DNA from: an uncultured Flavobacteriales bacterium
GTDB taxonomy: Bacteria > Bacteroidota > Bacteroidia > Flavobacteriales_E > Vicingaceae
Length of the DNA stretch: 64,000 nucleotides
Direction of reading: 5' to 3'
Assembly (NCBI GenBank): GCA_905479995.1
Contig: CAJQON010000013.1
Coordinates: forward strand, 62,001-126,000
Shown piece after piece: positions 5,304-11,107 of the stretch. The first letter of the stretch is position 1. Each line of letters begins with the position of its first letter. The notes beneath the pieces were generated by a model. That model saw only the letters and a list, made by a program, of their open reading frames with translations. It was not told the DNA's origin and ran no database searches. The translations under genes were made by a program, and so were the position numbers.

Positions 5304-5338
5304 AAAAAAAAGCCGAGCAAAAATTGCTCGGCTTTTTT
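5304..5338 (-). terminator. Rho-independent terminator of the seven-gene exported-protein operon
   Basis: A perfect 10-bp stem (AGCCGAGCAA pairs with TTGCTCGGCT) has a three-base loop and is flanked by A and T runs. On the minus strand it follows the stop of the beta-barrel gene by about 20 bases and ends in a T run. Confidence 0.9.
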
Positions 5339-5356
5339 ATATCGTAAAACTTTAAG

Positions 5357-6010
5357 TTACTCTTTTGAGCTTCCTCCAAATCTTATTCCAATTTTAACAG
5401 CTAGTCTTAAATCAACTGCTAAAGCATTACCTAAATAAGGTGTATAAACTTCTTCATCAAAAGTATCCAAAACATCTGCTTCAGCTACAGGATTAGAGTA
5501 AGTAATATCACTCATGATAAATTTACCTATTCCTCCAGTTACTTCTAAAAATAACGCTCCGCTAGTCTTCCACTTATAACCTGCCATTGCTCCAAGAGAT
5601 AATCCCGTTGAAGAAACATCCGTTTGTTGAAATGAAATACCGGTTAGATTAAGCGGATCAGGGTCAGCTCCATAGAAACTATTTCCATTTGAACTTGAAG
5701 ATCTATACTTCCCATAAATTCCAATATAAATACCATCGTTCCCTTTGTTAGGAGTCATAAAGTACTTATACTCTGGAATAATGTTTAATTCAGAATAGTC
5801 CATATCACCATCTATCGTCTTGTTATCAGTTAACATGTTCTTATCTGCAAAATTCACATTTATTCCAACAGAATTATTGCTATTAATCGCATACTCATAG
5901 CCTAAACCATATTTTGAAAATGCAAAACCTAAAACATCAAGACTAACGTCATGTTGTGCTTTTACCGTAAACCCAGTTAAAACAAGGGCTATTATTGCTA
6001 TTTTTTTCAT
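5357..6010 (-). CDS. Small outer-membrane beta-barrel protein
   Basis: The 217-residue protein has a signal peptide (MKKIAIIALVLTGFTVKAQ) followed by alternating hydrophobic/polar strands with many Gly and aromatic residues (YGLGYEYAI, NIIPEYKYFM, GIYIGIYGKYR), and ends in strands of the kind LRLAVKIGIRFGG. This is the pattern of a small eight-stranded barrel. It resembles DUF3575-type barrels in layout, but I cannot assign a family firmly. It is the last gene of the exported-protein operon, 28 bases after the preceding gene, and is followed by a strong terminator. It may provide the outer-membrane anchor or pore of whatever the operon builds; that is inference. Confidence 0.7.
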   Translation of the reverse strand: MKKIAIIALVLTGFTVKAQHDVSLDVLGFAFSKYGLGYEYAINSNNSVGINVNFADKNMLTDNKTIDGDMDYSELNIIPEYKYFMTPNKGNDGIYIGIYGKYRSSSSNGNSFYGADPDPLNLTGISFQQTDVSSTGLSLGAMAGYKWKTSGALFLEVTGGIGKFIMSDITYSNPVAEADVLDTFDEEVYTPYLGNALAVDLRLAVKIGIRFGGSSKE

Positions 6011-6038
6011 AATTATAATGCTTTAAATAAGTTGCTAA

Positions 6039-6989
6039 TTAATAAATTGACTTATACGTTACATTTGCTTTAGGTCCTTTACCATAAGCAACACCAATAG
6101 CTTTAATAGCAGCTATACGCTCACTTTCTTGAGCTTGTTCCTTAACTGTATATTTCCATTCTCTAGCATCAATTTGCTTCACTTTAGCAGCAATTTTATT
6201 AGATAAAGTTCTTGCTTGAGCAGCACATGCAGCATCTGGATTAATAGAAGCTAACATTGCTCCAGCTTCTTCAGCAGCAGCCATATCTTGAGCTGCATTC
6301 CAAATACCTGTAGCTTTTTGCAATTTTTCTTTACACTCTAAATCGATTTGTTTTTGGAAAATCGGTTTAATTGCATTCATTGCTTTAGTATAACACTCTT
6401 CACAAGCACTAGGAACTGCAGACAACTTAAAGATAGCAGCTTTATATTTTTGTTGATCTGCTAAAGTATTTGCTTCTTTAATAATCAAATCACAGTTATC
6501 TTTATAATACTGAATGATTTTTTCCTTTCCCTTTTTCACAAAAGCTTGTAAATCTGGATTACCAGCTTTCAACCTTTTAAGAGCTGAATTATAAGCTTTA
6601 GTTGGGTTAGTACCTACTCCTTTTAAAGAAACTGTTTCACTAGCAAACATTGTTCCTTCGAAACCATCACCTATATATAAAGTAACATCTAAGTTATAAG
6701 CATGCATTGGTGGTGGTCCTGGTAAAATATCTTTTGTCATTACAGCTACGTTAGCCGAAATAATAAATCGAGTATTATATGGACTTCCTCCTAACCCATT
6801 TTTCGTTACTACTTGCTTTAACTTATTCGTTAGCATTTTTCTCGAAGCCTTTGGCATTCCATCAATTGTTGGTGGAACCCATGATGTTAACATAATTCTA
6901 TTTTCATCTTTACTAGCCGTCTGTCCAAAAGAGATAGTGGTAGATAGAGCAAAAATTGAAGCAAGAATAATTGTACTTAATTTTTTCAT
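6039..6989 (-). CDS. Exported protein of unknown function
   Basis: The 316-residue protein has a signal peptide ending SFGQ. The N-terminal half is a mixed alpha/beta region with the line SLKGVGTNPTKAYNSALKRL, similar in pattern to the 'G-x-G...A...A' signature of LPP20/CsgG-type envelope domains. The second half is helical and looks like a degenerate TPR (ANTLADQQKYKAAIFKLSAV) with paired cysteines in SACEECYTKAM and further Cys residues. The C-terminus is basic. It sits between the DUF6175-like gene and the barrel gene, with gaps under 30 bases, so co-expression is very likely. I do not recognise a characterised homologue. Confidence 0.7.
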   Translation of the reverse strand: MKKLSTIILASIFALSTTISFGQTASKDENRIMLTSWVPPTIDGMPKASRKMLTNKLKQVVTKNGLGGSPYNTRFIISANVAVMTKDILPGPPPMHAYNLDVTLYIGDGFEGTMFASETVSLKGVGTNPTKAYNSALKRLKAGNPDLQAFVKKGKEKIIQYYKDNCDLIIKEANTLADQQKYKAAIFKLSAVPSACEECYTKAMNAIKPIFQKQIDLECKEKLQKATGIWNAAQDMAAAEEAGAMLASINPDAACAAQARTLSNKIAAKVKQIDAREWKYTVKEQAQESERIAAIKAIGVAYGKGPKANVTYKSIY

Positions 6990-7012
6990 AGTGTTTTTTT
7001 TAAAAAATGTTT

Positions 7013-7966
7013 TTATTTACCTCCAAGGATAATTGTAGCACGCCCTAAACCTTTCATTACTAATTTGTTTGGAATAAGATAAGGTTCTTTTTTAAGCATC
7101 TTACTTAATCCTTTTGCAAACTTTCTAGTATCCATAGCTCTACCTTTTGCATCGTAAAGTGGTATTCTTACTTGCTCAAATAATGCCATAGTTTCAGTCA
7201 TGTCAGTTGTGTTAAATCTTCCTTTTACAGTGTTATCTGCCATCCAATCTTCAATAATCGTGCCTAACTCATCATCACCATAATCTTCACTCTCTAAATC
7301 ACCATACCAATCATCCCAAGTCTGAACTCTTACAATAACTTCTCTTCCATTTTCAAACATATCATCAAAATAAGCTTGAAGTGTTGAGTTAAAGTTATCA
7401 ATGTGAGATGTTACTGCTTCAGATAACAATACAGATACTTCAGCAGTCATTGAAGGAGCCCCTGTTCCTTGAGCACCAGCAATTTGCTTATCAGTATAAG
7501 AATCTAACCCTTGTAAAATAAATGTTACTGATTTTTTAGGTCCAGTTTTATTAATTTTCCAAGTCAATTGCATAATAATATCTGCTTTAGCTACTTTTTT
7601 CAAAGCATCTATAGGATTTTCGTTTACGCTAGCTCCAGATTCTTTTGAAGACCTCATATTATCTTCTGCTGCATTAGACTCTAATGTTTTCATTGCTGAC
7701 TCTAAATTCTTTAACGGGAAACCTCTTTCGGCCATCATTCCATTAATAGAAGAAATCACAAGTAATACATCTGTATTCTCTTGCATCGCTCTTTTATAAT
7801 CTGGAATTTTCACCTTAGTTCCTTGATTATCAAATTCCATCATATATCCATTAAGGTTACACCAGTTATCACTAGGTACAACCATAATAGTAGGTTTTTT
7901 AGCTTGTCCGAAGCTTACTGTAATTCCTGCTACAATAAGACTAAGTAATAGTATTGTCTTTTTCAT
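7013..7966 (-). CDS. Exported DUF6175-like protein with a possible CsgG/TolB-like fold
   Basis: The 317-residue protein has a signal peptide ending SFGQ. The mature part begins KKPTIMVVPSDNWC and later has KADIIMQLTWKI followed by SVTFILQGLDSYTDKQIAGAQ and a helix near SEAVTSHIDNF. This order (beta strand with 'MVVPS', a helix, 'aDiim' strand, a strand describing a variant, 'av.shi' helix) resembles the DUF6175 family and, more distantly, CsgG/TolB-N-type envelope proteins. An acidic stretch (DLESEDYGDDELGTIIEDW) lies near residue 225. The DUF assignment is from memory of the sequence pattern and was not searched. It is in the middle of the exported-protein operon. Confidence 0.65.
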   Translation of the reverse strand: MKKTILLLSLIVAGITVSFGQAKKPTIMVVPSDNWCNLNGYMMEFDNQGTKVKIPDYKRAMQENTDVLLVISSINGMMAERGFPLKNLESAMKTLESNAAEDNMRSSKESGASVNENPIDALKKVAKADIIMQLTWKINKTGPKKSVTFILQGLDSYTDKQIAGAQGTGAPSMTAEVSVLLSEAVTSHIDNFNSTLQAYFDDMFENGREVIVRVQTWDDWYGDLESEDYGDDELGTIIEDWMADNTVKGRFNTTDMTETMALFEQVRIPLYDAKGRAMDTRKFAKGLSKMLKKEPYLIPNKLVMKGLGRATIILGGK

Positions 7967-8001
7967 AATTGTTATTTTTATCTTGTTTTTAGTTAGTTAA
8001 A

Positions 8002-8508
8002 TTATTTTGGCATAATGCCATCTTGAATCATTCGTGCTTTTAGCTTTGCTCTTTGCACTCTGATGATAACACCATAAGTAACTTGATCTCCAGCCTTTTT
8101 TCTTCCAGCAACAACTGAAAAGTGCATATCAGAACCATCTTCTCCTGTTATAAATTCAGTATAAGGACCTGCGTCTGCAAAGAAAGCATTAAAATAATCT
8201 TCTTTTTTCTCACGTATGTTAGGGTCAAATAAAACTGGTTTTCCGTTACACCCTTTGTTACTTATTACTCCTTTGAATAGCACATCTCTTAGGCCATTTT
8301 TTTTGGCTTGCTCTACAGCATCCTCTCTATTTCTTCCACTTCCCCAACCTTTTACAGTTTGAGAACCATCGCCTTCAACACCTATACATTCAGTTTCATA
8401 AGTATAGTTTCCAGCACCTTTCATTTGTGTACTTCCACAAGAAGAAACTGAAAGACTTAAAACAGCTACACTAACTGCAGCTCCTAATAATAATGTTATT
8501 TTTTTCAT
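8002..8508 (-). CDS. Lipoprotein with an LPP20-like domain, paralogue of the next upstream gene
   Basis: The 168-residue protein has a lipobox (SVSSCGS) about 24 residues from the start. The mature domain contains YETECIGVEGDG, then GWGSGRNREDAVEQAKKNG, then DVLFKGVISNKGC and a C-terminal strand VTYGVIIRVQ. The repeated 'G.G....A...Ak..a' pattern is like that of LPP20-type lipoproteins. The 176-residue product of the upstream gene aligns over almost the whole length with conserved cysteines, so the two arose by tandem duplication; only this copy is a lipoprotein. Function unknown; probably envelope-anchored. Confidence 0.7.
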   Translation of the reverse strand: MKKITLLLGAAVSVAVLSLSVSSCGSTQMKGAGNYTYETECIGVEGDGSQTVKGWGSGRNREDAVEQAKKNGLRDVLFKGVISNKGCNGKPVLFDPNIREKKEDYFNAFFADAGPYTEFITGEDGSDMHFSVVAGRKKAGDQVTYGVIIRVQRAKLKARMIQDGIMPK

Positions 8509-8519
8509 AATTGTAGTTT

Positions 8520-9050
8520 TTAAAATCCTGAAGATAATCCTTTAATTACACCAGCTGCTTCTAAATCTTTTCTTAAAGCATTAGAATTCACTGTAACTAT
8601 AACTCCAACTTTATATTTGTATCCTTTAATTTTAACTGCAATTACTTCTGGAGTTGCGTCTGCAGAATGAGATACAAACTTCATGTATTTACCTCCGTTA
8701 ACGTCAAAGAAGTTATCAAAAAACTCTTTCTTTTGCTCACCTACAGTAGGATCTGTAACTAATGCTTTTTGATTTGTACATCCTTGTCCTCCACCTGCAT
8801 AACCTTGAAAAACAATACCATGAACAGCGTTTTTCTTCGCTTGAGCATTTGCAACACTAGCTTTTTTAGAATACGACCACACTTTAATTACTTTAGTACC
8901 TGGCTTACCTATTCCAACACATTCTATTTCATATTTCCAAGCTTCTGTATCTTTCTGAGCTTTTTTAGTTTTGTTAATCTGTGCATTTGATGTTAATGCA
9001 AATGCAACCATTGCTACCCCAAGAGCTGCTTTTTTAATCATGTTTTTCAT
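8520..9050 (-). CDS. Exported paralogue of the neighbouring LPP20-like lipoprotein
   Basis: The 176-residue protein has a cleavable signal peptide (ending TSNAQ) rather than a lipobox. Shared landmarks with the downstream lipoprotein are YEIECVGIG against YETECIGVE, NAQAKKNAVHGIVFQG against EQAKKNGLRDVLFKG, GCTNQKALVTDPTV against GCNGKPVLFDPNI, and KKEFFDNFF against KEDYFNAFF. The mature N-terminus is lysine-rich (INKTKKAQK). The genes are 11 bases apart. One soluble and one lipid-anchored copy suggests a heteromeric assembly, but that is inference. Confidence 0.7.
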   Translation of the reverse strand: MKNMIKKAALGVAMVAFALTSNAQINKTKKAQKDTEAWKYEIECVGIGKPGTKVIKVWSYSKKASVANAQAKKNAVHGIVFQGYAGGGQGCTNQKALVTDPTVGEQKKEFFDNFFDVNGGKYMKFVSHSADATPEVIAVKIKGYKYKVGVIVTVNSNALRKDLEAAGVIKGLSSGF

Positions 9051-9071
9051 AGTTTATAATTTTTAATGTTC

Positions 9072-10439
9072 TTATTTAATTTGTCTTAATAACATACCTG
9101 GGTAAAGTCCACCTTTCTTTCCTTTAAAGTGAGTAAACTCAACTCCAGAATCTTCAACTGGTTCTCCTTTATCATCAACTAATGGAGCATTTTCATCTGT
9201 AGCAACATTGTTCCAAATTTTTCCTTTGGCTACTTTTATTGTACTTTTTCTTTTCCATTTCACTTTCCCTTCGGCATCAACAGTTTTTACTAAAACTTCA
9301 TATTCATCTCCAGCTTCTAAACCTTCTTTTAAACCAATTTTTGCTCCTAATGGATCTACACTAGTTAAAGGTGTTTTAGTTCTAAAAGGCTCGAACTTTC
9401 TTTGAAGCTTAGCATAAACTGCATCTATAGATTTAACTGTAGCATTTTTAATAATCATTGTTTTGTCATCAGCATTGCTTCCTAGTCCAGTAATTAAAGA
9501 CTTTGCTTTTTGAGAACCCAATAGCTTTAATTCAAATAATTCTGAATTATTAAATGCCTCTACTCTTGCTGGATCTGGTGCAGATGCATCGTTCCATAAG
9601 TCTTGGTAAAATACCGCAGACATAGAGTCTGTCCATTGTAATTGATATAAGTACGCTGTTGTCCAAACAGAATAACCATCTTTAGTTTTTTCATACAATT
9701 TATCAGCTGCTGCTTGACCAACTTTTCTAACAACTTCGTTCGCATTTGCAACAATAGAATAAGACACATCCCTTGCAGCTTTTGCGATAGGTTCATTAGC
9801 AACAAACTTAGAATAGTTTACTACTACAAATGAATTACCTATTAAATCCTCTCCTGCATCAGCCAACAAAGCCTCACCTCGTTCTGTACTATTTGCTTTT
9901 GCTTTATCTTGAGCAGATGCATCATACATACCTCTTTCTCCAATTAGATTAATATCAAAAGTTCCTTCTGGAGATCTATTAAACCATTTAGCTACCATTT
10001 CTCTAGCTAAGTGATTTTCTTTAATGTATTTATCAATTGTAGGAGCATAATTTTTAGCATCTTTCTTTTTTGCCTTTTCACCTTCTGCTACAGTAGGTGC
10101 TACATAATACTTTTCTAAATCAAATGATTTAGCTCCTACGGTATGATCATTATATTTATCTGGAAAGGGTGCTTCACTAAAAGAATTTAAAATCAGTTCT
10201 GCATCAGGCAATTTTGCATCTTCAATAATCATTGTGTGCAAAGAACTTCTTCTGTATTTAATAACACCATCTCCTTTACCAGACTTAGCTATTTTACCAT
10301 CATCCTTTTCTTCTTTTACTTTTTTTTCTTTTTTCGGTTTTTCTTCTTTTGTTTCAGCATCTTGTGCTAAAGCAACATTTGTTTGAAAACCTAAAAGTGC
10401 AGCAACTGCTATTACTGCCTTTATATTTTTTACTACCAT
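9072..10439 (-). CDS. Exported protein with lysine/glutamate-rich linker and FlgT-C-like end
   Basis: The 455-residue protein has a signal peptide ending ALAQ, then about 30 residues of Lys/Glu-rich linker. The middle part includes WFNRSPEGTFDINLIGERG and LLADAGEDLIGNSFVVVNYS, a pattern like the 'define variable / report presence' strands of CsgG/FlgT-type domains. The C-terminal 90 residues (VDPLGAKIGLKEGLEAGDEY, later WKRKSTIKVAKGKIWNN, ending GLYPGMLLRQIK) look like a small barrel of the FlgT-C kind. No characterised homologue is recognised. An intrinsic terminator lies between this gene and the first gene of the operon. Confidence 0.65.
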   Translation of the reverse strand: MVVKNIKAVIAVAALLGFQTNVALAQDAETKEEKPKKEKKVKEEKDDGKIAKSGKGDGVIKYRRSSLHTMIIEDAKLPDAELILNSFSEAPFPDKYNDHTVGAKSFDLEKYYVAPTVAEGEKAKKKDAKNYAPTIDKYIKENHLAREMVAKWFNRSPEGTFDINLIGERGMYDASAQDKAKANSTERGEALLADAGEDLIGNSFVVVNYSKFVANEPIAKAARDVSYSIVANANEVVRKVGQAAADKLYEKTKDGYSVWTTAYLYQLQWTDSMSAVFYQDLWNDASAPDPARVEAFNNSELFELKLLGSQKAKSLITGLGSNADDKTMIIKNATVKSIDAVYAKLQRKFEPFRTKTPLTSVDPLGAKIGLKEGLEAGDEYEVLVKTVDAEGKVKWKRKSTIKVAKGKIWNNVATDENAPLVDDKGEPVEDSGVEFTHFKGKKGGLYPGMLLRQIK

Positions 10440-10477
10440 TTTTTGCCTTGTTATTTGTTTTTACAATTTATGTTATA

Positions 10478-10511
10478 CTAAAAAGGGCAGTAATTCAACT
10501 GCCCTTTTTAG
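10478..10511 (-). terminator. Intra-operon terminator
   Basis: A perfect 14-bp stem (CTAAAAAGGGCAGT pairs with its complement) encloses a six-base loop, giving a T run after the GC part on either strand. It lies between the small first gene and the 455-residue gene, 38 bases before the latter's ATG, so it probably lowers read-through into the rest of the operon. Confidence 0.85.
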
Positions 10512-10518
10512 TGCTTTA

Positions 10519-11004
10519 TTATTTTTTCGCTCCTTGAGTCTTGATCATTTCCAACTGCCCAGGAATAGCATCCTTAGTTGCATTTAATGCTTTAGTACCA
10601 GCATTTAAAGCTTTTACAGCTTTCATAGAGTCTGTTTTTGGTGTAATTGCTTTTGCACCTTTCATTGCATCACCAGCTTTCCCTAATAATCCAGTTACTT
10701 CTTTCATTTGACCTTCTAAATCACTTTTAATTTTCCCAGCATCTCCTGCATTACCTCCTGCGTCTGCTAATTGCTTAGAAATTTCTTGGTTTTTTTCGTA
10801 TAAATCAAACGCTGAAGTTACATAACCATCAACTCCACCATTACCAACTTTTGCAGGTCTTTCTAATACTTTTTCTTTTTTATCCTTACTCTTTTTATCT
10901 TTTTTCTTTTTTTGAGCAAAAGAATCTGTAGAAACACCCGCTAATAATAATGCTATCATTAATACTTTTGTAGCAGTACCTAAATTTTTAGTAATTTTTT
11001 TCAT
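10519..11004 (-). CDS. Small exported helical protein with lysine-rich N-terminus
   Basis: The 161-residue protein has a signal peptide ending DSFAQ, then a run of Lys residues (KKKKDKKSKDKKEK). The remaining 110 residues are Ala/Gly/Lys-rich, amphipathic and nearly free of aromatics (EISKQLADAGGNAGDAGK, KAVKALNAGTKALNATK), so probably one or two long helices. It has no Cys. It is the first gene of the operon and lies before an internal terminator, so it is probably made in excess over the other products, as expected for an abundant structural or coat protein. The function is unknown. Confidence 0.7.
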   Translation of the reverse strand: MKKITKNLGTATKVLMIALLLAGVSTDSFAQKKKKDKKSKDKKEKVLERPAKVGNGGVDGYVTSAFDLYEKNQEISKQLADAGGNAGDAGKIKSDLEGQMKEVTGLLGKAGDAMKGAKAITPKTDSMKAVKALNAGTKALNATKDAIPGQLEMIKTQGAKK

Positions 11005-11044
11005 TGTTTTATTTTAATAGTTAGTAATCCTTTAATTAGGCTAA

Positions 11045-11052
11045 CAAATATA
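11045..11052 (-). promoter_or_regulatory. -7 promoter element of the exported-protein operon
   Basis: The minus strand reads TATATTTG, matching TAnnTTTG, about 40 bases upstream of the first ATG. A clear TTG at -33 spacing is missing. Confidence 0.45.
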
Positions 11053-11085
11053 AAATAAAAAGAGCATATTATCCATAATCACCAA

Positions 11086-11107
11086 TTTTGTTAATTAATT
11101 AACAAAA
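11086..11107. promoter_or_regulatory. Perfect 22-bp palindrome upstream of the exported-protein operon
   Basis: Two 11-base arms (TTTTGTTAATT and AATTAACAAAA) meet with no spacer. The centre is about 57 bases before the inferred transcript start of the operon, a usual position for an activator site. Confidence 0.4.

Follow-up and report, generated by a model that had tools for sequence, protein, structure and literature searches.

A 64,000-nucleotide stretch of contig CAJQON010000013.1 (assembly GCA_905479995.1, positions 62,001 to 126,000), here called the window, from an uncultured Flavobacteriales bacterium of the family Vicingaceae, carries a seven-gene operon for exported proteins (g1 to g7, numbered from its 5' end). 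The core of this operon, g2-g3(-g4)-g5-g6, is conserved as a unit under selection; g1 at one end and g7 at the other are lineage-specific, local additions. The product of g2 has a predicted fold resembling that of Vibrio FlgT, a component of the flagellar H-ring, and this FlgT-like fold within a conserved block of exported proteins suggests that the outer membrane bears an assembly not described so far. The minus strand carries all seven open reading frames (ORFs), separated by gaps of 79, 21, 11, 35, 23 and 28 bases from 5' to 3', and a hydrophobic N-terminus typical of export is found on each product. The initial annotation, which described seven genes on one strand with gaps of 11-79 bases and export signals on all products, is borne out on both points. 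Only g5 (DUF6175) and g7 (DUF3575) reach a Pfam cut-off; g1, g2, g3, g4 and g6 match no Pfam family above cut-off, and neither a tRNA nor an Rfam family was found in the window.

The core was delimited by comparing gene order across genomes. A DUF6175 alignment scan of named genomes yielded 391 confirmed relatives, and 80 public Bacteroidota loci (L numbers below; genomes carry G numbers) were kept. Most belong to Flavobacteriia, including Tenacibaculum, Aquimarina, Cellulophaga, Polaribacter and Flavobacterium, together with some Pedobacter, Arachidicoccus and unplaced metagenome-assembled genomes. The g6 gene lies directly 3' of the DUF6175 gene in 77 of 77 testable loci, g2 precedes DUF6175 in 74 of 75, and a g3/g4-type gene does so in 76 of 78, with two g3-type genes in 39 of these 78. 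A non-core flanking gene is common to just 22 of 1113 locus pairs with DUF6175 identity below 65%. Because synteny is near-perfect amid such unshared flanks, and well beyond what chance would give, we regard the core as a selected unit. Of the two loci that seem to lack g3, L086 is explained by the choice of a long start, its g3 having been found in the other survey; the only clear exception to the core order is L129 (6914-8913), with DUF6175 and g6 but neither g2 nor g3 detectable before them. The genes are therefore not scattered but co-occur across Bacteroidota genomes, and the proposal that they form one conserved unit holds for g2-g3(-g4)-g5-g6 across the 80 loci but not for g1 and g7. 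The complete seven-gene order is found again in close relatives; g1 and g7 occur only there, and most core-bearing loci have no g1. A hidden Markov model (HMM) of g1 was not used, as it pulled in the Lys-rich N-termini of g2.

The core block is kept together in many marine and soil bacteria without flagella. Its spread is patchy, with the family present in 13 of 296 Bacteroidota genomes and in 18 of 46 within the order. No DUF6175 match was found among PLSDB plasmids, and a role in anti-phage defence was rejected after PADLOC gave no match for the five core-type proteins. L123 (3868-10632) has a duplicated set: behind g2-g3-DUF6175-g6 come another g2, of 591 aa, and a pair of g3-type genes.

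The resemblance of g2 to FlgT emerged from structure prediction. In a Foldseek search of the PDB, an AlphaFold (AF2) model of g2 built from 55 sequences (mean predicted local distance difference test score, pLDDT, 79) matched Vibrio FlgT at ranks 1 and 2, through two independent chains, 3w1e (E 1.6e-5) and 8z5n chain 0 (E 1.7e-5), both with a probability of 1.00. The next matches were TraT (E 0.017-0.036) and CsgG (E 0.2 and up), which places the FlgT E-values at least two orders of magnitude below any other. VIA also ranks FlgT chains 1 and 2 (Z 7.6 over 230 aligned residues and Z 8.4 over 221), in an alignment that spans model residues 61-455; no CsgG chain is among the g2 matches listed by VIA. 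The initial annotation had recognized a FlgT-C-like barrel in this 455-residue protein. The fold matches uphold that assignment and extend beyond the C-terminal barrel, so that the FlgT link, as judged from the predicted model, is stronger than first claimed. Taken alone, the barrel (~353-455) is also similar in VIA to the N-terminal barrel of F1-ATPase subunits, with a root-mean-square deviation (rmsd) of 1.7-1.8.

Several results weigh against an envelope complex built around a FlgT-like protein. The TM-scores between g2 and FlgT are low (0.19-0.22), the rmsd exceeds 10 Å (~11), and a Z of about 8 falls in the range that VIA calls common; on the predicted model, either the match is only partial or the arrangement of domains differs. 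Because the whole-chain TM-score is low, we consider it likely that g2 has the same domains as FlgT in a different arrangement. No Pfam FlgT domain scores above cut-off in g2; one of the 55 family members matches FlgT_C, at E 0.093 only, and none of 198 Bacteroidota genomes contains FlgT_C over cut-off. More broadly, no member of g2, g3/g4 or g5 reaches the Pfam cut-off for FlgT, LPP20 or CsgG, and PDB sequence searches with the g2, g3/g4 and g5 profiles returned chance-level matches only. When the g3 model was compared with the PDB by Foldseek and VIA, nothing significant was found, and no LPP20, FlgP or FlgT chain. Finally, the g2-barrel fusions described below rest on weak scores, and one candidate (L040) lies several genes away.

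Additional g2-type proteins were seen. The host genome encodes a 569-aa g2 paralogue away from the operon (L042:7937-9646, on G000:C2; E ~1e-86), and the gene upstream of it carries a UvrB/UvrC-type motif; at L052 a similar paralogue sits immediately before g2. The g2 proteins of L073, L083, L087, L111, L116 and L134 are 755-920 aa long and have unrelated extensions at the N-terminus; two of them match DUF2846 weakly, and in one there is a weak match to UVR.

FlhA is absent from 16 of 18 carrier genomes, including the host (G000; 3.1 Mb, completeness 98.2%), and present in the distant G109 and G243. On account of this absence the host and most carriers tested are taken to lack flagella, in agreement with what had been assumed for the host, and a flagellar role is excluded for the host as far as 98.2% completeness allows. 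Among the closest known systems is the Vibrio H-ring of FlgO, FlgP and FlgT: FlgT is the best PDB match of the g2 model, and small genes and a possible CsgG/TolB-type gene stand beside g2 as FlgO and FlgP stand beside FlgT. The differences are that g2 contains no Pfam FlgT domain above cut-off, that the host has no flagellum, that g3 and g4 do not match LPP20 in sequence or profile searches and the g3 model matches no LPP20 or FlgP chain in fold searches, and that VIA aligns g2 from FlgT residues ~95-119 on, leaving the FlgT N-domain without a counterpart. We know of no Vibrio counterpart of DUF6175 or g6. No paper linking FlgT-type proteins to Bacteroidota envelopes was found in the literature searched.

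Two of the small core genes had been annotated as LPP20-like paralogues. Their paralogy is clear (g3 against g4, hhalign probability 100, E ~1e-48), but the LPP20 label finds no support from Pfam, profile, Foldseek or VIA comparisons: none of 63 g3/g4 members matches Pfam LPP20 (PF02169), the profile-profile probability in hhalign is 3, and membership is thereby rejected at the sequence and profile level. A profile match between g2 and g3 (E 4e-40) was discarded as an artefact of a g2-g3 fusion ORF at L133, since it disappeared once L133 was removed. The SHS2 fold consists of a strand, a helix and two further strands. In the AF2 model of g3 (pLDDT 84), a strand and a helix are followed by a helical insert of ~40 residues, two strands and a helix, a predicted order compatible with the SHS2-like fold of FlgP, Lpp20 and FlgT. 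This fold is common to the three proteins (PMC12222027), and the predicted strand-helix-strand-strand order leaves an LPP20-type fold possible while the label itself is unsupported. Cys44 and Cys91 of g3 are kept in 90% of members, and a lipobox regular expression matched 12 of 35 g4 proteins.

Gene fusions tie the families together. Eight distant genomes encode DUF6175 with a g3-type domain fused to its N-terminus. With family profiles and HMMs built from L055-L134 only, leaving out these fusions, most were detected at HMM E-values of 9e-6 to 1e-3 (none by HMM for L041), and the fused domain matches g3 and g4 with hhalign probabilities of 96.5 and 97.2. The fusions adjoin an LPP20 protein, by Pfam where Pfam was checked and by an LPP20 profile in all eight; a true LPP20 protein follows the fusion in these distant relatives, although g3 and g4 themselves have no LPP20 match. 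At L133, g2 and g3 share one ORF (E 2.5e-73), and at both L038 and L041 a region similar to g2 (297 columns, probability 76.9) continues into a part resembling outer-membrane protein (OMP) barrels, with weak barrel matches. Barrel genes also recur beside the core, as g7 in the window and as an OMP_b-brl_2 gene, unrelated to g7, immediately upstream of g2 in Flavobacterium-like loci (E 4e-26). At L036 the g2 position is taken by a CsgG/LpoB-like protein (Pfam 21.0 bits, cut-off 20.8; profile probability 94; E 1.9e-4 for LpoB and 2.2e-4 for CsgG), and a small Lys/Glu-rich exported protein precedes it. Taken together, the g3-DUF6175, g2-g3 and g2-like-barrel fusions, the barrel genes beside the core and the CsgG/LpoB-like protein of L036 point to one complex at the outer membrane. 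Adjoining CsgG-type and LPP20-type genes without DUF6175 were also seen in other Bacteroidota (G045:C2:68919-69937, G089:C2:148495-149460 and G014:C84:28778-29547), and such pairs suggest a wider class of operons of this kind.

The g5 protein is a full-length DUF6175 member (PF19672; E 6.3e-126, 419.8 bits against a cut-off of 23, profile 1-293 of 293), a family without described function that no paper in the literature searched names. The initial annotation had given it a DUF6175/CsgG-like layout. The DUF6175 part stands; the CsgG-like N-terminal part receives a weak profile match, in which DUF6175 with distant members matches CsgG at hhalign probability 65.5 (E 5.8e-5, 116 columns). Most unrelated comparisons made alongside gave values below 7, and one, with full LPP20 proteins, gave 39 across 39 columns. 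Pfam found DUF6175 as the sole family in g5, the CsgG cut-off not being reached. Likeness to CsgG/LpoB consists of this weak match and the clear one at L036, whereas g2 and g5 fall under the CsgG cut-off and no csgA, csgB, csgE or csgF gene lies beside them. The N-domain of g6 resembles the C-terminal domain of LPP20-bearing proteins (profile probabilities 90.7 and 70.9). The degenerate TPR noted earlier finds support in the g6 family, where Pfam families of TPR type match the helical half in 14 and in 6 of the 50 members (best E 1.6e-5), but not in the g6 protein of the window itself, which has no TPR-type match. Residues Cys 166, 199, 219 and 255 of g6 are near-invariant, and the conserved cysteines of g3 and g6 fit an oxidising periplasm. 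As predicted, g7 is an outer-membrane barrel; it exceeds the DUF3575 cut-off (E 5.9e-9, 35.9 bits against 21.1), with OMP_b-brl weaker. It differs from the conserved partners in lying outside the core, and a different barrel is found at other loci.

Signals in the DNA suggest how the operon may be expressed (Table 1). A putative promoter element, TATATTTG, fits the Bacteroidota -7 consensus, and 10 of the 12 relatives examined have a counterpart before g1. The palindrome TTTTGTTAATTAATTAACAAAA is a possible operator, judged from its sequence; its inner GTTAATTAATTAAC was found again in only one of the 12 relatives (L050). The gap between g1 and g2 is the sole folded gap inside the operon, with a hairpin of 15 pairs (-23.9 kcal/mol, z -8.1). 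The terminator scan listed it on the plus strand, and its A/T flanks make the hairpin bidirectional. An equivalent hairpin is present in 10 of 11 relatives, with stems diverged in sequence yet still paired, and absent in L050. With so strong a terminator-like hairpin between g1 and g2, the transcript may not be uniform, and because the hairpin lies behind g1, g1 is probably made in excess of g2-g7.

Table 1. Positions in the window of the operon genes and associated signals.
Feature	Position	Strand	Description
g1	10519..11004	-	161 aa, 19% K, helical-looking, exported; lineage-specific first gene
g2	9072..10439	-	455 aa, exported, FlgT-like (predicted); helical/sheet middle and C-terminal beta-barrel ~353-455; core gene
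g3	8520..9050	-	176 aa, small exported protein, strand-helix-insert-strand-strand (predicted), two conserved Cys; core gene
g4	8002..8508	-	168 aa, g3 paralogue, probable lipoprotein in the window (Cys after LSVSS); in about half of loci
g5	7013..7966	-	317 aa, DUF6175 (PF19672); core gene
g6	6039..6989	-	316 aa, N-terminal domain and degenerate TPR-like helices, four near-invariant Cys; core gene
g7	5357..6010	-	217 aa, DUF3575/OMP beta-barrel; lineage-specific last gene
TATATTTG	11045..11052	-	fits Bacteroidota -7 element TAnnTTTG; 41 bases before g1
TTTTGTTAATTAATTAACAAAA	11086..11107		22-base perfect palindrome upstream of putative g1 -7 element; possible operator
Hairpin and T-run between g1 and g2	10476..10513	-	intrinsic-terminator-like; probable partial terminator
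Intrinsic terminator after g7	5306..5338	-	15-pair stem and T-run; end of operon

Taken at its most probable, and with fair confidence on our part, the core would form a scaffold or collar in the periplasm, set against the outer membrane and centred on a FlgT-like protein. We infer that g2, g3/g4, g5 and g6 are parts of one physical complex that is attached to the outer membrane from the periplasmic side, has g2 at its centre and serves no flagellum. Here, g2 and g5, with FlgT-like and possibly CsgG/TolB-N-like domains, would assemble with g3/g4 into a hetero-oligomeric scaffold or collar, to which g6 may dock partners through its TPR-like half. Anchoring would be provided by a lipoprotein, a small beta-barrel partner or both: the lipid of g4 and the g7 barrel in this operon, and other barrels elsewhere. 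In this lineage g1, in excess due to the terminator behind it, may be an abundant accessory or client.

As the initial annotation proposed, this structure might close into a true outer-membrane ring or pore, comparable to the H-ring of Vibrio or to the channel of CsgG; we consider this possible but doubtful. FlgT, which forms part of the H-ring with FlgO and FlgP (PMC6375700), is the top fold match of g2, and the Foldseek list also contains TraT, a decameric outer-membrane protein (E 0.017), and marginally CsgG (E 0.2). Moreover, the helix of g3 is separated from the strand after it by an insert, and in the FlgP family an insert at this position accompanies ring formation (PMC12222027). Against this, the g3 insert is predicted to be helical, whereas FlgP rings are built by a beta-hairpin; neither FlgP nor LPP20 chains match g3, and g2 offers no evidence of a transmembrane hairpin.

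Three further explanations are less likely than a scaffold or collar, or its closed ring or pore form. A curli-like export of g1, with g2/g5 as the outer-membrane gate and Lys-rich g1 as an abundant secreted substrate, would be consistent with the g1-g2 terminator in most g1-bearing relatives, which suggests g1 excess, and with the CsgG-like gene of L036 preceded by its small Lys/Glu-rich protein. We consider it unlikely, since g1 is absent from most core loci and so cannot be a general substrate; by eye, no amyloid-type repeat was seen in g1. Similarly improbable is a lipoprotein-based activator of envelope enzymes that forms no ring, acting as LpoB does with peptidoglycan synthase: the L036 protein has scores for both LpoB and CsgG, g4 in the window is probably a lipoprotein and g6 is TPR-like, yet no cell-wall enzyme gene accompanies the core, whose flanks are random, and the fold match of g2 is FlgT rather than LpoB. 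A relic of a flagellar H-ring (FlgT/FlgO/FlgP) retained after flagella were lost is very improbable, for although g2 has a predicted FlgT-like fold and G109 and G243 encode FlhA, the core proteins lack sequence-level membership of FlgT, FlgO or LPP20, the other 16 carriers have no FlhA, and an operon so strongly kept without flagella is not decaying.

In summary, the scaffold or collar interpretation would give a first hold, through structure and gene context, on DUF6175 and four adjoining families, whose function is unassigned, in hundreds of Bacteroidota genomes. In its most specific and speculative form, to which we give rather little credence, flagellum-less Bacteroidota would carry a dedicated outer-membrane collar in which a FlgT-like subunit is combined with a small subunit in duplicate, with DUF6175 and with a TPR protein; the collar would be kin to the parts behind the flagellar H-ring. 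If the assembly is ring-like, FlgT-type parts would be used away from flagella, and the origin of the Vibrio H-ring would become testable.

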